NCBI GenBank assembly: GCA_937125225.1
Contig: CAKZLE010000032.1
Coordinates: 1-64,000, forward strand
Direction of reading: 5' to 3'
Origin: an uncultured Spirochaetia bacterium
GTDB lineage: Bacteria; Spirochaetota; Spirochaetia; CAKZLE01
Length of the DNA: 64,000 nucleotides
Part shown: one piece after another, positions 1-25,670 of the stretch
Position numbering within the stretch: position 1 is the stretch's first letter
Layout: each line of letters begins with the position of its first letter
The notes under the pieces: model-generated
Database searches by the model: none
What the model was told of the DNA's origin: nothing
What the model saw: the letters and a program-made list of their open reading frames with translations, nothing else
Position numbers and translations under genes: made by a program

Positions 1-299
1 GGATCAAAGTCAATGCGATGGCACCAGGTCCTATAGAGACCGACCTGATGAGGCGAGTAGGATCAGACAAGCAATTGTTCGATACTATCCTGTCTCGAAC
101 ACCCCTAGGAAGAATCGGATCCACAAAAGAGTGTGGTCGACTCGCAGTATTCCTAGCATGTGAAGATTCTGATTTCATCATGGGACAGTCCATCTATAAC
201 GATGGAGGAAGAAGCTTTCAGGCCTTCCCTGTTCCAGGATACAAGACCATCACTGATGAAGACTATGATTTTCTTCAGCAGAAGCGGGAGGATCAGTAA
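1..299 (+). CDS. SDR-family oxidoreductase, C-terminal part (gene runs off the left edge)
   Basis: This is the C-terminal third of a short-chain dehydrogenase/reductase. The frame is open from the window edge and reads IKVNAMAPGPIETDLM, the conserved stretch after the catalytic Tyr-Lys of classical SDRs. The terminal pattern (GRIGSTKECGRLAVFLACEDSDFIMGQ, broken here only by listing) and an NDGG ending are also typical. The Rossmann N-terminus, catalytic Ser/Tyr/Lys and start codon lie outside the window. The stop overlaps the next ATG by one base, so it is translationally coupled to the isomerase-like gene and belongs to a sugar-acid or deoxysugar catabolic operon. The substrate cannot be told. 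The first ATG in view is internal and not a real start. Confidence 0.85.
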   Translation, partial: IKVNAMAPGPIETDLMRRVGSDKQLFDTILSRTPLGRIGSTKECGRLAVFLACEDSDFIMGQSIYNDGGRSFQAFPVPGYKTITDEDYDFLQQKREDQ

Positions 300-1717
300 T
301 GAGTTATCCAAAAGTAGGATTTATCACCTTCGGTGATCATAGACCAGACATGTGGGAAAAGGTATTTTCTCATAAAACGATCCCGTTACATGCCAAGGCT
401 ATTGAGACATTGAAAGAGTTACCCATAGATCTTGTCGTATCTTCAGATATCGCAAGAACACGTGAACAGATCAATATCGCAGTGGATGAACTGAAAGCTG
501 CAGGTGTTGAACTATTGATCGCCCATATCCCCTGCTGGACATCACCAAACCTAGTCGTCCACGGTGTCCAGCGGATGGGATTATATACTATTCTTGTAGG
601 AAACACAGACCCTGGTACGCATGGTTGTGTTGGTCTTCTCGGTGCTTCTGGAGCCCTTGCACAGATCGATTATCCTCATAAGAATATCAGAGACAAATAC
701 TCAGTTGCCTCCTACGAGAAGAAACTTCTTCCTCTCATCAGAGCAGCTGCCGTAAAAGAGAAACTCAAAGGTTCTGTCTTTGGCCTCTTTGGTGGACGTT
801 CCATTGGAATCGACACCGGTCTCTTTGATCCTATGCAGTGGAGAAGTCAGTTCGGGATTGATACAGAGCATCTTGCTCAGATAGAGATCGTTCGATTAGC
901 CGAGATGATGCCACAGGAACGAATCGATAAGACACGAGAGTGGATGGAAGAGAATGCTCTTGCTATCGATTATAATGATGATAAGTTCACTAAAGAGAAG
1001 TTTGATTTCCAATTAGCCTGTTATCTAGCTACCAAGGATCTTGTTAAAGATTATGGGATGGATTTCATTGCTATCAAATGTATGCATGAGCTCTCGAACT
1101 CCTATATCCCTCAATGTATGACACAGGCTCTTCTTGCAAACCATGAAGATGCAGAGGGGGCAAAGGAGACTACTCCTATTGCCTGTGAAGCTGATGCAGA
1201 TGGTGCTTTGACTCAGCAGATCCTGAAGATCCTTTCAGGAGGACTTCCTACCTTCTTTGCCGATGTGTCACACATCGATGAGGAGAGGGAGATGGTCTAT
1301 TGTGTGAACTGTGGAGCGATCTGTGTCTATTATGCTGGTCGGAATCAGGATACCAAAGAGAATCTCAAACAGATCCGGTTCAAACAGTCAGTTCGACCTG
1401 CAGGTGGTGGAATAACCTATTTCAACGCCTCTGAAGGTCCTATGCAGTTAGCTCGTCTCTATAGAAAGGCTGGTAAGTATAAGATGGCTATCATCCCTTG
1501 TAATGCGGAGAATCCAACGCAAGAGATGGTCGATGAGTTCGTAGAAGCACGAGGTCCTCATCAGTTACCAACCCTCTTTGCAAAGGTGAATTTTGATCTT
1601 GAACGATTCATCAATGAGTATGGGTCTAACCATATCTCAGGTGTGGCTGGTAATTATCTTACAGAGTTATTGGAAGTATGCGATCTTCTAGGAATAGAAG
1701 CCGAAGTATTTGGTTAA
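299..1717 (+). CDS. L-fucose/L-arabinose isomerase-family protein
   Basis: The 472-residue protein resembles the FucI/AraA isomerase fold, mainly the group of fucose-isomerase-related proteins found in sugar-catabolic clusters. Visible hallmarks are an N-terminal Rossmann-like half, a GLFGGRSIGIDTG segment near residue 160, a CMHELSNSYIPQC region near 260, and a C-terminal barrel-like domain with EGPMQLARLYR. It would be cytosolic and metal-dependent if it is a true aldose-ketose isomerase. It is tightly coupled to the SDR gene upstream and followed 25 bases later by an HpcH/HpaI aldolase, so a route from a deoxysugar or sugar acid to pyruvate plus an aldehyde is plausible. Many members of this subgroup lack a proven substrate, so I assign the family only. 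Confidence 0.8.
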   Translation: MSYPKVGFITFGDHRPDMWEKVFSHKTIPLHAKAIETLKELPIDLVVSSDIARTREQINIAVDELKAAGVELLIAHIPCWTSPNLVVHGVQRMGLYTILVGNTDPGTHGCVGLLGASGALAQIDYPHKNIRDKYSVASYEKKLLPLIRAAAVKEKLKGSVFGLFGGRSIGIDTGLFDPMQWRSQFGIDTEHLAQIEIVRLAEMMPQERIDKTREWMEENALAIDYNDDKFTKEKFDFQLACYLATKDLVKDYGMDFIAIKCMHELSNSYIPQCMTQALLANHEDAEGAKETTPIACEADADGALTQQILKILSGGLPTFFADVSHIDEEREMVYCVNCGAICVYYAGRNQDTKENLKQIRFKQSVRPAGGGITYFNASEGPMQLARLYRKAGKYKMAIIPCNAENPTQEMVDEFVEARGPHQLPTLFAKVNFDLERFINEYGSNHISGVAGNYLTELLEVCDLLGIEAEVFG

Positions 1718-1742
1718 GCAGATACAAAAGGAAGGAATAAAG

Positions 1743-2522
1743 ATGTTAGAAAAGAATAAGAACTGGGTAAGACATGCCCTTAAAGATGGAAAGAAGATCG
1801 GTGGAGCTTGGTTACAAGCTGGTAGCCCAATAACTGCAGAGGTCATGGCTGAAGCAGGTTATGATGCATTGATGATCGACCTCGAGCATGGACCAGGGGA
1901 TATCATGTCAACGATCCTCCAGATTCACTCTATGAAGGGTGAAGTAGCAGTACCTTTCTCAAGAGCTCCTTGGAATGATTTCGTTCAGATCAAGAGAATT
2001 CTCGATGCAGGAGTATATGGTCTGTTAGTTCCCTATGTGAACACCAAAGCGGAGGCTCTAGATGCCGTATCAGCAGTATCTTACCCATTAGAGGGGATAC
2101 GTGGTGTTGCCGGCTCTCCAAGAGCTGCTCACTATGGGAACAAGTCCATGGAGTATCTCGCTAGTGCCAATGAAGAGGTCTACCTGATGACAGCTGTAGA
2201 GACTCCAGTCGCTGTTGCAAACCTGGACGAGATACTCACCGTAGAAAGACTTGATGGTATCTTCATTGGACCGATGGACCTTGCTACGAACATGGGCCAT
2301 TTTGGTAATCCAAAACATCCAGAGGTACAGGCTGCCATCAAAGAGGTAGAAGAGAAGGTCTTCGCCGCTGGTAAAGTCCTCTCGACAGTTGCTGGAACCT
2401 GGGAAGATGCAAAAGCGAAATATGATAAGGGATACCAACTAGTATTCTTCTTCTCTGATACTACTGCATTAGGTGCAGCAGCTAGAGCAAGACTTGCTGA
2501 GTTCAGAGAATATACTAAATAG
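1743..2522 (+). CDS. HpcH/HpaI-family aldolase (class II, 2-keto-3-deoxy sugar-acid type)
   Basis: This is a 259-residue pyruvate-dependent class II aldolase of the HpcH/HpaI (citrate lyase beta-like) barrel family. It shows the MIDLEHGP strand, VPYVNTKAEA, the RGVAGSPRAAHYG loop, an AVETPVAVAN segment with the metal-binding Glu, and FIGPMDLATNMGH with the metal-binding Asp. Family members split 2-keto-3-deoxy-L-rhamnonate, 4-hydroxy-2-oxoheptanedioate and related acids into pyruvate and an aldehyde. The ATG at 1743 is preferred over the in-frame start at 1710 because AAGGAAGG lies just upstream. It is the last gene of the SDR-isomerase operon and is followed by a terminator. A second member of the family lies at 24903. 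Confidence 0.88.
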   Translation: MLEKNKNWVRHALKDGKKIGGAWLQAGSPITAEVMAEAGYDALMIDLEHGPGDIMSTILQIHSMKGEVAVPFSRAPWNDFVQIKRILDAGVYGLLVPYVNTKAEALDAVSAVSYPLEGIRGVAGSPRAAHYGNKSMEYLASANEEVYLMTAVETPVAVANLDEILTVERLDGIFIGPMDLATNMGHFGNPKHPEVQAAIKEVEEKVFAAGKVLSTVAGTWEDAKAKYDKGYQLVFFFSDTTALGAAARARLAEFREYTK

Positions 2523-2704: not shown

Positions 2705-2743
2705 CTTTATATGTTTAAGATGATAAGATACAAGGAGGAGTTG

Positions 2744-3313
2744 ATGGATATAAAGCAAATGCTCGAAGAGCGAAAGCGATTCAATGATTACATTGATAAT
2801 TGTAAGTTCGAAACCCCTGAGGAAGTCGCAAGATTGTTCAAGGAATACACGAACTTGATCTGGGATAAAAAACTGGTAGGGTTGTGTTATGATTTCTATA
2901 CCGATGATATTGTGATACACCGAGAGGGTGGAGTGACCGCTATAGGCTATGAGGGGGTCATCGCTGCAACTTTGAGTTTTATGGCTTCATTCCCGAACCT
3001 TAAGTTTCAGTTTCTTGATATCTTCGCTGAAGGGAATCCTGAGGATGGATACCGATTTGGTCAGTCTCTCTACTATGTTGGTGAGAATAACGGATACAGC
3101 TCCTATGGTGAACCCACCGGGAAGACTATGTCTCCCGATGATAACCTCTGTCTTGGACTCTGTGAATGTCTGGTCAAGAAGGTTGAGGGAAGATGGAAGA
3201 TCGTGGAGGAGTGGCTCGTTCGAAGTGGTGATGCACTTGAAGAGATCATGACCAAAGATAAGACTGAAGAAGAATCTGTAGCAATCAGTGCAGAACTTGA
3301 AGTGGAGGCATAA
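2744..3313 (+). CDS. NTF2/SnoaL-like protein A of a tandem pair
   Basis: A 189-residue soluble protein whose size and pattern fit the SnoaL-like (NTF2-like cone) fold. It has an N-terminal helix pair, a YDFYTDDIVIHREGG strand, a GYEGV helix, an FPNLKFQFLDIFAEG strand and a terminal VEGRWKIVEEW strand. Some relatives are polyketide cyclases, dehydratases or isomerases; many only bind small ligands. The start at 2744 has a strong AAGGAGGAG site; the in-frame ATG at 2711 would precede that site. The gene directly follows two palindromic operators and is followed by a diverged paralog and the LacI regulator. A role in handling the LacI inducer or a related substrate is an inference. The acidic C-terminal 25 residues look disordered. 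Confidence 0.65.
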   Translation: MDIKQMLEERKRFNDYIDNCKFETPEEVARLFKEYTNLIWDKKLVGLCYDFYTDDIVIHREGGVTAIGYEGVIAATLSFMASFPNLKFQFLDIFAEGNPEDGYRFGQSLYYVGENNGYSSYGEPTGKTMSPDDNLCLGLCECLVKKVEGRWKIVEEWLVRSGDALEEIMTKDKTEEESVAISAELEVEA

Positions 3314-3317
3314 GGTT

Positions 3318-3830
3318 ATGATGATATGTAATAAATACTCAGATGAGATCAAGGTACTCCGAAGGAGTATCGAAGCCAATACTTTCTCTGATATCGAAGC
3401 GGTCAGATCATTTATTCGGGACTATACCAAATTAGTCTATGACTTCAAGATGATCGGACTGATCTATGACTACTATGATAAGAATATCATCTATAGAAAA
3501 GAGAACAGATTGACGATCACAGGGGTCGAGAATCTAGTCTTTGATATCCTAGAACTTCTTGCAACCTTCCCTGATATGACTGTAGATCTAGAGAGCATCA
3601 TCGTCTCTGGTGATGTCGATAGTGGATACAAGGTCTGGAGACGGATGAGATACCATGGTACGAACACTAATCATACGAAGTTTGGTGCACCTACAAACAA
3701 GGAACTCGGTGACGGGTGTCTAGGACTCAGCATGATGTTCCTTAACAAGGTGGATGGCAGCTGGAAGGTAACCGAAGAACACAATCCAATCAGCTATTCC
3801 TACATCAGGGATGTCTGTACCGCTGAATAA
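3318..3830 (+). CDS. NTF2/SnoaL-like protein B of a tandem pair
   Basis: A 170-residue protein that aligns along its length with the preceding gene product: SFIRDYTKLVYDFKMIGLIYDYYDKNIIY here matches the corresponding helix-strand unit there, and both end in a DGSWKVTEEH or EGRWKIVEEW strand. The pair therefore arose by tandem duplication and then diverged strongly. The start at 3318 lies four bases after the stop of protein A with a GGAGG site inside the end of that gene, so the two are coupled and may form a heteromer, as NTF2-like proteins often dimerise. No catalytic dyad can be assigned. The function is unknown. Confidence 0.62.
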   Translation: MMICNKYSDEIKVLRRSIEANTFSDIEAVRSFIRDYTKLVYDFKMIGLIYDYYDKNIIYRKENRLTITGVENLVFDILELLATFPDMTVDLESIIVSGDVDSGYKVWRRMRYHGTNTNHTKFGAPTNKELGDGCLGLSMMFLNKVDGSWKVTEEHNPISYSYIRDVCTAE

Positions 3831-3895: not shown

Positions 3896-4927
3896 ATGAG
3901 CAGTGAAGAGGACCAGAGACCACTAAAACGAATCACCTCAATCGATGTAGCCAAGCGGGCAGGCGTCTCCCAGTCCACGGTATCCCGTGCACTGAACCCT
4001 AATAGTAAGCTCTCTCCTGCTCTGAGGGAGAAGGTTCTGTCCTCCGCGAAGGAACTCAACTACCGTCCCAATGCTATAGCGAGGGGGATGTCTTCTCGTA
4101 ATACGCATATCATCGGGCTTACCATTAGTGATACGGTCAGTTCTTACTACTACAAACTCCTGAAACTCTTTACGAAGAAGATGCATGAAGCTGGATTACA
4201 GTTGATGCTTTTCAACACTTCTGAACATGCAGATATGGACAGAGTGCTCGACCGACTCATTGAGTACCGGGTGGATTCTCTCATTGTCGAGGGGGTCGCG
4301 GTCTCGAAGGATTTCATAGGCAAGTGCGCAGAACAGGAGATTCCGGTCATCCTCTTCGGGAGGAATATTCCTGATGTCAAAGCCCATACGATCTGCCTTG
4401 ATGATGTTGCCTGTGGACGAAAGGTCGCACGTCTTCTACATCAGACGTATGCAGAGAGTTATGCTTTTATTACTGCTAAAGAGGACAAAGACTCTAGTCG
4501 TAATAGGATGACTGGGTTCTCAGATTACCTGAGTGAACAGGGAATTCCCTCTCCTCAGGTGGAAGGAGCCGGCTTCTCCTATGAAGAAGGATATGCTGCT
4601 GCGATCAGGCTGCTGACCGGAGAGAATCCTCCTGATGCTATCTGTTGTGTGACTGATATCATCGCATTAGGAGTCATGGATGCTGCACGTCATAAGCTAG
4701 GCCTGAAAATCCCGGAAGATCTTTCTGTTATAGGATTCGATAATATAGACGAAGGGAAGATGGATGCTTTTTCCCTTACAACTGTCAGTCAACCAATAGA
4801 GGCCATGGTCGATGCTTCGATCGAACTGCTAAAAGCATGGCAGAGAAATACTCCTACAGAATATGATCTGCAACTCTTCGAAGGGGGACTTGTCCTGAGG
4901 GACTCCGTGAGAACCCTGAAAAACTAA
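3896..4927 (+). CDS. LacI-family transcriptional regulator
   Basis: A 343-residue repressor or activator. Residues 17-64 form the LacI helix-turn-helix (SIDVAKRAGVSQSTVSRAL) and hinge (NYRPNAIARGM). Residues about 70-335 form a periplasmic-binding-protein-like effector domain ending in the usual GFDNIDEGKMD and TTVSQP segments. The gene follows the NTF2-like pair in the same direction. Palindromes with a GAATACGTATTC core, which carry the central CpG usual for LacI operators, lie before that pair; related sites lie before the cupin operon (23152) and the Liv operon (11454). The effector is probably a sugar or sugar acid handled by the neighbouring enzymes (inference). No strong ribosome site precedes this start, which suggests low expression. 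Confidence 0.9.
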   Translation: MSSEEDQRPLKRITSIDVAKRAGVSQSTVSRALNPNSKLSPALREKVLSSAKELNYRPNAIARGMSSRNTHIIGLTISDTVSSYYYKLLKLFTKKMHEAGLQLMLFNTSEHADMDRVLDRLIEYRVDSLIVEGVAVSKDFIGKCAEQEIPVILFGRNIPDVKAHTICLDDVACGRKVARLLHQTYAESYAFITAKEDKDSSRNRMTGFSDYLSEQGIPSPQVEGAGFSYEEGYAAAIRLLTGENPPDAICCVTDIIALGVMDAARHKLGLKIPEDLSVIGFDNIDEGKMDAFSLTTVSQPIEAMVDASIELLKAWQRNTPTEYDLQLFEGGLVLRDSVRTLKN

Positions 4928-23043: not shown

Positions 23044-23103
23044 CTAGCGAAATAGTGTATATAGGGTATAATAGAGTTACGACTTATTCATCATAAGAAT
23101 GAT

Positions 23104-23142
23104 CAGATAGGTGGAACCGTACAATACGTACGGTTTTATCTG
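23104..23142 (+). promoter_or_regulatory. Two-tier hairpin/inverted repeat before the cupin operon
   Basis: AACCGTAC (23115-23122) and GTACGGTT (23128-23135) form the inner arms around AATAC; CAGATA (23104-23109) and TATCTG (23137-23142) form an outer stem. It could be a protein operator or an mRNA leader structure. A TATAAT hexamer lies upstream at 23067-23072. Confidence 0.5.
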
Positions 23143-23151
23143 CCTATATAT

Positions 23152-23163
23152 GAATACGTAGTC
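23152..23163. promoter_or_regulatory. Probable LacI-type operator before the cupin operon
   Basis: GAATACGTAGTC matches the core GAATACGTATTC of the 2626-2704 operators at 11 of 12 positions. It lies 26 bases before the cupin start codon. Confidence 0.55.
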
Positions 23164-23188
23164 AGTATGTAAGAAAAGGAGCCAATAT

Positions 23189-24187
23189 ATGAACTATGAA
23201 TCAAACAAACATCTTGTTAGATTTGCGGATCTTGAATATGCACGTGCAGCCTTCATCGATGCACGAATCCCAGGTAGCCACCTCAAAGAGAACTATTGCA
23301 TCGTCGGGGCCGGTGTTTCTCAAGATAGTAGACAACCGGTCCACATCAGGGAGACCGATGGATTTCATCTTGGTGCAGCGGGACAACCACCTGGGATCCT
23401 GAACTCTCTTCATAGCCATCGCACTGCTGAGATCTTCATGGTCTATAAGGGTACTTTCAGGATCTATTGGGGACCAGAAGGAGAGCATGAAGCTCTTCTT
23501 GGACCTGGTGATATGATCACTGTTCCTATTCATTGCTTCAGAGGCTTTGAGGTGGTCGGGATCGAGAGTGGGTTCATGTTCGTCGTCTTAGGGGGTGATG
23601 ATTGCGGTGGGGGAGTCATATTCCATCCGACTATCCTCTCCGAGGGGCAAAAGTATGGACTTTACCTCAAGAAGGACAAGACCCTTGCCGATACGGTGAT
23701 CGGAGACCCTGTGCCTGAAGCATCGGAACTTTTTCCTCCACTCACCGCTGAGGAGGTCGCTGAGTTCGACAACTATTCAGTCGAGGAGATGATGAAGTAT
23801 GTGTCGCTTAAGGCTGACAGGACACCACGAGAGAGTGCCTTCACCGCCTCTGGAACCTTTGACTGTTATCACGTTTCAGGTCACCCGGACCACGATGATG
23901 ACTTTGAAGTGAAGAGTAACGATGGAGTGAGTATCTACAGCTATGAGATCCCTGAAGGTGGCTACGTCCCGATGCATCGAAGATCAGAGAATCAGGTACT
24001 GGTGAACCTATCAGGAGATGTAAGGCTGACCTTCAGTGATCCAGAACTGATGCCGATACTATTAGGACCTGGGGATACCTATGATCTTCCCAAAGCATTG
24101 GGAGTCGAGCTCGAGGGGGTCAGAGAGACTGGATATGTCTATTGTATCGTACATGGTGATGATGTGAGTGCACCTGTGGTATTATAG
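23189..24187 (+). CDS. Bicupin protein
   Basis: A 332-residue protein with two cupin barrels. The first (about residues 55-145) has HSHRTAEIFMVYKG, matching the HxH...E metal-binding motif, and the GPGDMITVP strand. The second (about 245-325) has GGYVPMHRRSENQVLVNLSG and GPGDTYDLP, where His appears only once, so its metal site is weaker. Bicupins include dioxygenases, decarboxylases and isomerases; no specific one is clear. It starts after AAAAGGAG and is followed three bases later by an alpha/beta hydrolase and then an HpcH/HpaI aldolase. The three are probably steps in one catabolic route, for example opening of a lactone or ring followed by aldol cleavage (inference). Confidence 0.78.
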   Translation: MNYESNKHLVRFADLEYARAAFIDARIPGSHLKENYCIVGAGVSQDSRQPVHIRETDGFHLGAAGQPPGILNSLHSHRTAEIFMVYKGTFRIYWGPEGEHEALLGPGDMITVPIHCFRGFEVVGIESGFMFVVLGGDDCGGGVIFHPTILSEGQKYGLYLKKDKTLADTVIGDPVPEASELFPPLTAEEVAEFDNYSVEEMMKYVSLKADRTPRESAFTASGTFDCYHVSGHPDHDDDFEVKSNDGVSIYSYEIPEGGYVPMHRRSENQVLVNLSGDVRLTFSDPELMPILLGPGDTYDLPKALGVELEGVRETGYVYCIVHGDDVSAPVVL

Positions 24188-24190
24188 ATT

Positions 24191-24919
24191 ATGATGAAGA
24201 TACTATTCCTACCGGGGCTCCTATGTACCTCTGAGATTTTCTCTTACCAGATGGCTCGTCTTCCCCAAGGGTTTGAAGCTTTACCGGTAACATTGGCGAA
24301 TCGGAAAAGTATATCTGCTATCGCTGAAGAGATTCTAGCGGATCTGAGAGAACCGGTGATCCTTTGTGGGCTCTCGATGGGTGGGATAGTTGCGATGGAG
24401 ATAGTAGCACAAAGGGCTGATCTCGTTGCGGGGATGATACTTCTCGATACCAATGCTCTAGACGAGGGCCCTGTTGTCTCACAGAACAGGAACAGACTCG
24501 TGGCTATCTCAGAGTCTGAAGGTCCTGGCCTCATGTCACTCAAACACTTGATGAGAGTTCTCGTCCATCAAACTCGTGAACAGGATAAAAGCTATATTGA
24601 CAGAGTCTATGATATGGCAGAGGAGGTCGGTCATGAGTGTTTCATCTCTCATGCTGAGGCCCTTGCATCGAGAAGAGATTATTCCTCGGTACTGCAACGC
24701 TTCGGCAGACCAGTCAAGATCATCTATGGGGACAGTGACATGCTCACCCCAGAGCCGAGACAGAGACATCTCGTTTCTCTTTTAGCTATGAATTCGGTCA
24801 CTGTGATTCCAGAGTGTGGGCACTTGAGTTCCTTAGAGTCGCCTGTAGAAGTATCAGAAGTTGTGAATTTGTGGTTGACTAGCCATTTCAAGGAGTATTT
24901 AGATGTTGAAGAAGAGTAG
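24191..24919 (+). CDS. Alpha/beta hydrolase
   Basis: A 242-residue cytosolic alpha/beta-hydrolase. The nucleophile is Ser62 in GLSMGG; the acid is Asp in YGDSDMLTP (near residue 180) and the base is His in CGHLSSLE (near 205). The oxyanion region is LPGLLCTSEIF at the N-terminus. Its size and layout resemble 3-oxoadipate enol-lactonases and related esterases. No strong ribosome site precedes it, but it starts almost at the cupin stop (two ATG codons, 24191 and 24194), so it is probably translated by coupling. It overlaps the aldolase gene by 17 bases. The substrate is presumably an ester or lactone intermediate of the same pathway. Confidence 0.85.
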   Translation: MMKILFLPGLLCTSEIFSYQMARLPQGFEALPVTLANRKSISAIAEEILADLREPVILCGLSMGGIVAMEIVAQRADLVAGMILLDTNALDEGPVVSQNRNRLVAISESEGPGLMSLKHLMRVLVHQTREQDKSYIDRVYDMAEEVGHECFISHAEALASRRDYSSVLQRFGRPVKIIYGDSDMLTPEPRQRHLVSLLAMNSVTVIPECGHLSSLESPVEVSEVVNLWLTSHFKEYLDVEEE

Positions 24920-25670
24920 GGTCAAACAGTTGTTGAAAGAGGGAAAGGTCGTATACGGGACATTCGTGAAGTCGACTGATCCTGCGATCATCGAGATACT
25001 TGGGCATATCGGGTTTGATTTCATCATCATCGATAATGAACATATCGGTATGAGCAAACAGACGCTTACCCAACTCATCAGGGCGGCACAACTCGTGGGG
25101 ATCGAACCGATCGTACGGGTAAGAAGTAAGGATACTCAAGAGATCTTACAGACTCTCGATGCCGGTGCACAGGGGGTTCAAGTACCCAATGTTGATACGA
25201 AAGATGATATGAGACAAGTATCAGATGCTGTCTACTTCGCACCAAAGGGATCTAGAGGTTTCGCAACGACTTCTCGTGCTGCACAGTATGGGATCTCAAA
25301 TATCGATGACTATGTAAAAGAGGTCACCGATCAGCTCATGATCATCACTCATTGTGAGACCGTGGAGAGTGTCCGGACCTTAGAGGAGCAGATATCTTTG
25401 AAGGCTCATGATGCCTTCTTCATCGGGCCGATGGATATGTCACAGTCTGCCGGAGTCATCGGCCACCCCGAAGATCCCAGAGTTGCGAAGGTGATCACTG
25501 AAGCTATCGAGACCTGTAAAAGACATGGGATACCATTTGGGACAGTCGTAGGCTCTAAAGAGGCTCTAGATACATATATTGGGCTTGGGATGCAGTACGC
25601 GGTACTGAAATCAGATTTTGGTTTCCTTATCGATGGAGCAAAGAGGATGTTGAAAGATATTAAGGGATGA
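24903..25670 (+). CDS. HpcH/HpaI-family aldolase, second copy
   Basis: A 255-residue class II pyruvate aldolase barrel. Hallmarks are FIIIDNEHIGMS, VQVPNVDTKDDMRQ, the GSRGFATTSRAAQYG loop, HCETVESV with the metal Glu, and FIGPMDMSQSAGVIG with the metal Asp. It has the same family and layout as the product of 1743-2522 but differs in many positions, so the two are likely to have different aldehyde products. It overlaps the hydrolase gene by 17 bases and ends the cupin operon. Confidence 0.88.
   Translation: MLKKSRVKQLLKEGKVVYGTFVKSTDPAIIEILGHIGFDFIIIDNEHIGMSKQTLTQLIRAAQLVGIEPIVRVRSKDTQEILQTLDAGAQGVQVPNVDTKDDMRQVSDAVYFAPKGSRGFATTSRAAQYGISNIDDYVKEVTDQLMIITHCETVESVRTLEEQISLKAHDAFFIGPMDMSQSAGVIGHPEDPRVAKVITEAIETCKRHGIPFGTVVGSKEALDTYIGLGMQYAVLKSDFGFLIDGAKRMLKDIKG

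Follow-up and report, generated by a model that had tools for sequence, protein, structure and literature searches.

Which regulator, if any, acts on the operator-like sequence that precedes a cupin-hydrolase-aldolase operon in the window, that is, in the whole 64,000-nucleotide stretch of DNA from an uncultured Spirochaetia bacterium (genome G000) analysed here? The first-pass annotation had described this 12-mer as a near copy of an operator located before a pair of NTF2-like genes, and had linked both sites to a LacI-family regulator encoded 19 kb away. The 12-mer itself, GAATACGTAGTC (positions 23152-23163, plus strand), is present as described; 25 bases separate it from the cupin ATG at 23189, and it has a single mismatch to the perfect palindrome GAATACGTATTC (11/12). 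Taken alone, this 11/12 match is at chance level in the genome: GAATACGTATTC with at most one mismatch is found at 10 places in the whole genome, compared with 8 for a reversed-pattern control. The site rises above chance because it is conserved in a related genome, G001, and because all five exact matches to GAHTACGTAGTC in G000 precede the units of one regulon.

The cupin operon and its leader

The operon consists of three genes on the plus strand that encode a 332 amino acid Cupin_2 protein (23189-24187), a 242 amino acid alpha/beta hydrolase that is PcaD-like, at a score far below the equivalog cut-off (24191-24919), and a 255 amino acid HpcH/HpaI aldolase (24903-25670). Like the other aldolase in the window, the latter falls between HpaI and GarL, below cut-off. 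The cupin matched none of the NCBIfam families, a PDB search yielded only a weak match, to the quercetinase QueD (E = 6e-4), and among the 392 genomes of the phylum the only one with a relative of this protein was its own (1/392).

Alignment with G001 reveals a conserved -10-like box, TATAAT (TATACT in G001), at 23067-23072 on the plus strand, with no convincing -35 element; a promoter scan ahead of the cupin gene found no promoter. Between this box and the 12-mer, the leader contains a hairpin with a 15-bp stem and a 5-nt loop (23108-23142, plus strand), the core stem of which, ACCGTAC/GTACGGT, is kept in G001 although the gene upstream differs there. The hairpin is stable in the window (leader folding z -2.7, compared with -1.3 for the G001 leader), and an Rfam search of the leader and hairpin produced no family match. 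The sequence AATACGTA within the hairpin (23123-23130) was considered as a second operator and set aside, being absent from G001.

With one base added on each side, the 12-mer becomes the 14-bp sequence TGAATACGTAGTCA (23151-23164, no strand assigned), the predicted operator discussed below, with CG at the centre and six of the seven arm positions complementary. LacI-family operators are typically even palindromes that have CG at the centre and lie near the start codon (Ravcheev et al. 2014, PMC4052901). Symmetry and conservation at the cupin site span 14 bp, compared with the 16-22 nt expected of such operators, and the centre of the site lies ∼31 bases ahead of the ATG at 23189, at the border of the usual range (140-30 bp). 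With the conservation described next, the sequence before the cupin operon looks like a real, conserved operator-like site of the LacI type.

Conservation of the site in a related genus

In a set of 60 relatives, an orthologous cupin (84% identity) was found in one other genome only, G001, which belongs to another genus of the same family and is the only same-family relative. A transposase gene lies directly ahead of the G001 cupin gene. The inserted element (C40:97072-98811; L044 1573-3312) is of the IS66 type, with IS66-like ends, and is flanked by an 8-base target duplication, GAATTATG; it sits in the start-codon region and cuts the gene off from both promoter and Shine-Dalgarno sequence. 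The original cupin promoter is preserved to the left of the insertion, and in the aligned sequence TGATTACGTAGTCA stands where the window has TGAATACGTAGTCA, with the -10-like box, the hairpin and the Shine-Dalgarno region likewise retained.

At the aligned position, 13 of the 14 bases of TGA[A/T]TACGTAGTCA are identical. The site is thus kept before the orthologous operon, the check that the first-pass annotation had proposed, in one ortholog of one (1/1); this is a single pairwise comparison between sequences that are fairly well conserved around the site too, and the longest string that the two cupin promoters share, TACGTAGTCA, ties in length with their common Shine-Dalgarno stretch. What is kept in G001 is the GTAGTCA half, that is, the half that disagrees with the operator of the LacI encoded nearby, and the base that agrees with that operator is lost. 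The expected match of the cupin site to GAATACGTATTC in both genomes is therefore not what is found, with one mismatch in G000 and two in G001.

The nearby LacI and the NTF2-like pair

The regulator to which the site had been attributed, hereinafter the near LacI, is a 343 amino acid repressor of the LacI family (3896-4927, plus strand) with LacI and Peripla_BP_3 among its Pfam domains and a G001 ortholog that is 73% identical. Ahead of it lie two SnoaL/NTF2-like genes (2711-3313 and 3288-3830, plus strand; conserved in G001), preceded by two copies of the perfect palindrome GAATACGTATTC (2637-2648 and 2690-2701, no strand assigned), the predicted operators 1 and 2 of the near LacI. Exact GAATACGTATTC is found at two places in G000 and two in G001, all before the orthologous NTF2-NTF2-LacI genes and nowhere else in either genome; this restriction makes the assignment of the operator pair to the near LacI well supported. 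A longer inverted repeat (2626-2659), centred on operator 1, scores as a minus-strand terminator and might additionally affect transcription from the neighbouring unit.

A common motif before four transcription units

When one mismatch to TGANTACGTANTCA was allowed, a search gave 13 places in G000 (control, 10) and 8 in G001 (control, 4), and was followed by inspection of gene maps, Pfam domains and promoter sequences. In each of the two genomes, GAWTACGTAGTC precedes four units: the genes for the TRAP transporter DctPQM, an Ldh_2-creatininase-SDR-FucI-HpcH operon, a URO-D gene and the cupin operon. The TRAP genes of G000 have two such sites. All five places with exact GAHTACGTAGTC in G000 lie before these four units, and so do four of the five in G001, the fifth being located before a serA-like gene. 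The latter site, AGAATACGTAGTCA (C75:31836; L079 2837), has no counterpart among the exact matches in G000. The exact motif is not enriched overall compared with the reversed control (5 against 5 in G000, 5 against 3 in G001, 1 against 10 in G421, 1 against 2 in G422 and 1 against 4 in G423). Given the control counts of 5 and 3 in G000 and G001, the argument is from where the matches lie, not from how many there are.

Before the URO-D and Ldh_2 genes, the site immediately follows the -10 box in both G000 and G001, which is the classical position for a repressor, unlike the cupin site, ∼80 bases past its -10-like box. The motif extends beyond these two genomes. In G422, the 12-mer of the cupin promoter is found on the opposite strand (GACTACGTATTC) before a single-contig operon, Ldh_2-creatininase-FucI-URO-D-HpcH-GAPDH-PGK-racemase-LacI-C3, the last gene of which encodes an ortholog of a second LacI-family protein described below; in G421 (apparently the same genome as G049, and counted once), GACTACGTAATC lies ahead of the Ldh_2 operon. 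In both G421 and G422, the site before Ldh_2 is the sole exact match in the genome. The only exact match in G423, which has a LacI-C3 ortholog at 56% identity, falls inside a coding frame. A search of G421-G423 gave no cupin operon, and it looks as if the operon either joined the regulon later or was lost from these genomes.

The sites were first gathered with the cupin site as the guide, and a separate search was therefore confined to the 300 bases before Ldh_2 in four genomes, with the cupin site left unused. The most conserved 12-mer in these regions is GACTACGTAATC (the reverse complement of GATTACGTAGTC), with one mismatch in total, compared with 6 for the best of 40 shuffles that preserve base composition only. 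The longest strings shared by G000 and G001 are TAAGACTACGTAATCATTTT before Ldh_2, AAGATTACGTAGTCATT before URO-D, GATTACGTAGTCA before the TRAP genes and the above TACGTAGTCA before the cupin gene. Each of the 11 sites considered (the nine used for the LacI-C3 matrix below and the two cupin sites, which together represent only about five independent loci) has GACTAC in one half and GAWTAC in the other, an asymmetry that may be the unusual part of this system, although the pattern is suggestive only. A perfect palindrome, TGATTACGTAATCA, was also observed in G001 (C93:21853; L084 4854), between a TetR-type gene and a gene for a 492 amino acid protein without a Pfam match.

Three LacI paralogues and the broken contigs

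G000 encodes three related LacI proteins, each with an ortholog in G001: the near LacI, LacI-C3 and LacI-C4. The LacI-C3 gene (C3:114441-115457) lies in a row with genes for HpcH and for GAPDH-like, PGK and racemase proteins, of which the latter three are named from their sequences, the Pfam checks having covered only the HpcH- and FucI-type genes elsewhere. As expected of the LacI family, the protein contains PF00356 above cut-off (C3:115293-115427) and aligns with the near LacI over its full length; the recognition helix, GVSQSTVSR, is identical in the two. A scan of genome contigs with LacI-C3 returned 36 loci: four, in G001 and three other spirochaete MAGs, at 56-70% identity, and the other 32 at no more than 32%. 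Among the 392 genomes, relatives at E ≤ 1e-75 were confined to its own (1/392).

Palindromes of the TGTATACGTATACA type surround the LacI-C4 cluster in both genomes (L075 3231, 3341, 5310, 9745 and 11977; L077 1227 and 3565), which is the predicted regulon of the third paralogue. The FucI-like isomerase and HpcH aldolase genes at the start of the window (299-1717 and 1710-2522, together 299-2522, plus strand) are the end of this cluster, with operator TGTATACGTATACA, and do not belong to that of LacI-C3. The window FucI-like protein falls far short of both the sulfoquinovose isomerase and the fucose isomerase cut-off, and the Ldh_2 protein on contig C9 is nearest to L-sulfolactate dehydrogenase, below the cut-off for that family.

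In G000, the motif-bearing Ldh_2 promoter and LacI-C3 are on different contigs. The same 77 bases begin C3 (reversed) and C32, the contig of the window, at the window start, and C4 and C9 are identical over their last 77 bases, which implies that the assembly broke in a repeat, the duplicated creatininase-SDR genes. The FucI and HpcH proteins of C3 are each 84% identical to those of G001 contig C78, compared with 66% and 63% for those of the window; the pair at the window start is 81% and 74% identical to that of G001 C31; and the Ldh_2 proteins pair C9 with C78 (77%) and C4 with C31 (73%). Orthology thus pairs C9 with C3 and C4 with C32, and C9 most likely runs on into C3, so that the motif-bearing Ldh_2 operon would contain LacI-C3. 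A join of C9 to the window start was rejected on the same grounds.

Choice of the regulator

The site at 23151-23164 is probably an operator of LacI-C3, and the cupin-hydrolase-aldolase operon accordingly a member of the predicted LacI-C3 regulon. The cupin site matches the motif of the operon that carries LacI-C3, being the same 12-mer on the opposite strand in G422, and the consensus of the LacI-C3 sites, when oriented, is WGAWTACGTAGTCA. The conserved site, the common motif, the co-occurrence with LacI-C3 and, in one genome, the co-operonic layout can be read directly from the genomes. A position weight matrix for LacI-C3 was built from nine sites (four from G000, three from G001 and one each from G421 and G422), leaving aside as unassigned the cupin site of each genome, the serA site of G001 and the remaining places. 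Under this matrix, in a comparison that is partly circular because of the way the sites were first gathered, the cupin sites reach 20.8 and 24.7 bits, the matrix's own sites, left out in turn, score 17.5-26.3, and the cupin-site scores have no equal in the one simulated 3.43 Mb genome that served as background. Under the matrix of the near LacI, the cupin sites score 10.5 and 9.0, compared with 18.5-20.7 for its own sites, and 237 and 388 places, respectively, score equally well or better in one simulated 3.43 Mb genome.

These scores speak against the attribution to the LacI encoded 19 kb away. A circuit in which the near LacI represses both the NTF2 pair, through GAATACGTATTC, and the cupin operon, through the 11/12 variant, is improbable: a single base differs in G000 and the recognition helix is the same as in LacI-C3, but in G001 the site departs from GAATACGTATTC at two positions and no longer has the base that matched, and exact GAATACGTATTC is found at no place in G000 or G001 other than the NTF2 promoter. 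The suggested co-occurrence of the site with the near LacI gene also fails, given that the motif is present, together with LacI-C3, in G421 and G422, where the near LacI has no ortholog (the best matches, at 34% and 37%, are at the LacI-C3 ortholog). The GntR/LacI-hybrid regulator encoded next to the TRAP genes (C9:18910-20010) was discarded as the owner of the motif for a similar reason, as it is present in G000 and G001 and has no match in the motif-bearing G421 and G422. Because LacI-C3 and the near LacI have the same recognition helix, cross-binding of the cupin site by the latter is possible; a dual input, strong from LacI-C3 and weak from the near LacI, through which the two circuits would talk to each other in this species, would also fit the one-base difference in G000, but G001 has not kept the A that favours the near LacI, and we consider this arrangement unlikely, if somewhat less so than sole control by the near LacI. 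Least probable of all is that the 12-mer before the cupin gene is a functionless, chance or neutral resemblance. The chance-level frequency of 11/12 matches genome-wide and the dependence of the conservation on one pairwise comparison are in line with such an origin, but the aligned position is kept, and in the exact form common to the promoters of the three other units.

If LacI-C3 is the regulator, its dimer would sit on the 5' leader of the cupin operon, past the conserved -10-like box and ahead of the ribosome-binding site, and would block transcription until an effector of the sugar-acid type releases it. Release would then occur simultaneously at the TRAP transporter, the Ldh_2-creatininase-SDR-FucI-HpcH-GAPDH-PGK-racemase-LacI-C3-SMP30 operon, the URO-D gene and the cupin operon. 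Binding by LacI-C3, repression and the class of effector are what we infer here. Of the small regulon initially envisaged, the tie between the cupin operon and another HpcH/HpaI aldolase survives; the link to the NTF2 pair is not supported, and the aldolase route in question is the one on C9/C3.

Known LacI regulons and implications

A literature search on these genes returned general papers on LacI regulons and nothing specific, and the main text of the survey by Ravcheev et al. (PMC4052901) contains no word beginning with 'Spirochaet'. As in the LacI-family local regulons of sugar catabolism described in that text, the operator is an even palindrome with a central CG near the start codon, the regulator is encoded within an operon predicted to be under its control, and the targets are transport and catabolic genes; unlike in those regulons, the conserved block is 12-14 bp long, with one GACTAC and one GAWTAC half per site. 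In Lactobacillus plantarum, paralogous LacI regulators have operators that differ at one position (Francke et al. 2008, PMC2329647), with a possible overlap in binding as in the present case. That system involves another phylum and other targets; here, the difference is at the fourth base from the centre and the recognition helix is identical.

It is conceivable, if rather speculative, that a minimal operator code, built on a common TACGTA core, keeps the near LacI (GAATACGTATTC), LacI-C3 (GAWTACGTAGTC) and LacI-C4 (TGTATACGTATACA) separate from one another, with the LacI-C3 sites kept asymmetric and so insulated from the near LacI despite the same helix; under such a code, two of the three paralogues would serve paralogous sugar-acid clusters.

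Overall, this is an ordinary LacI regulon, of a known kind with new members, and an informative case of paralogue operators that differ at one position. The wiring of the locus is corrected in that the nearest LacI, despite its similar operator, is probably not the regulator of the cupin operon, and this uncharacterised cupin-hydrolase-aldolase operon would be assigned to a sugar-acid regulon. The three paralogues, with their closely related operator variants in two genera, form a compact natural set for testing how LacI-family regulators avoid cross-talk.
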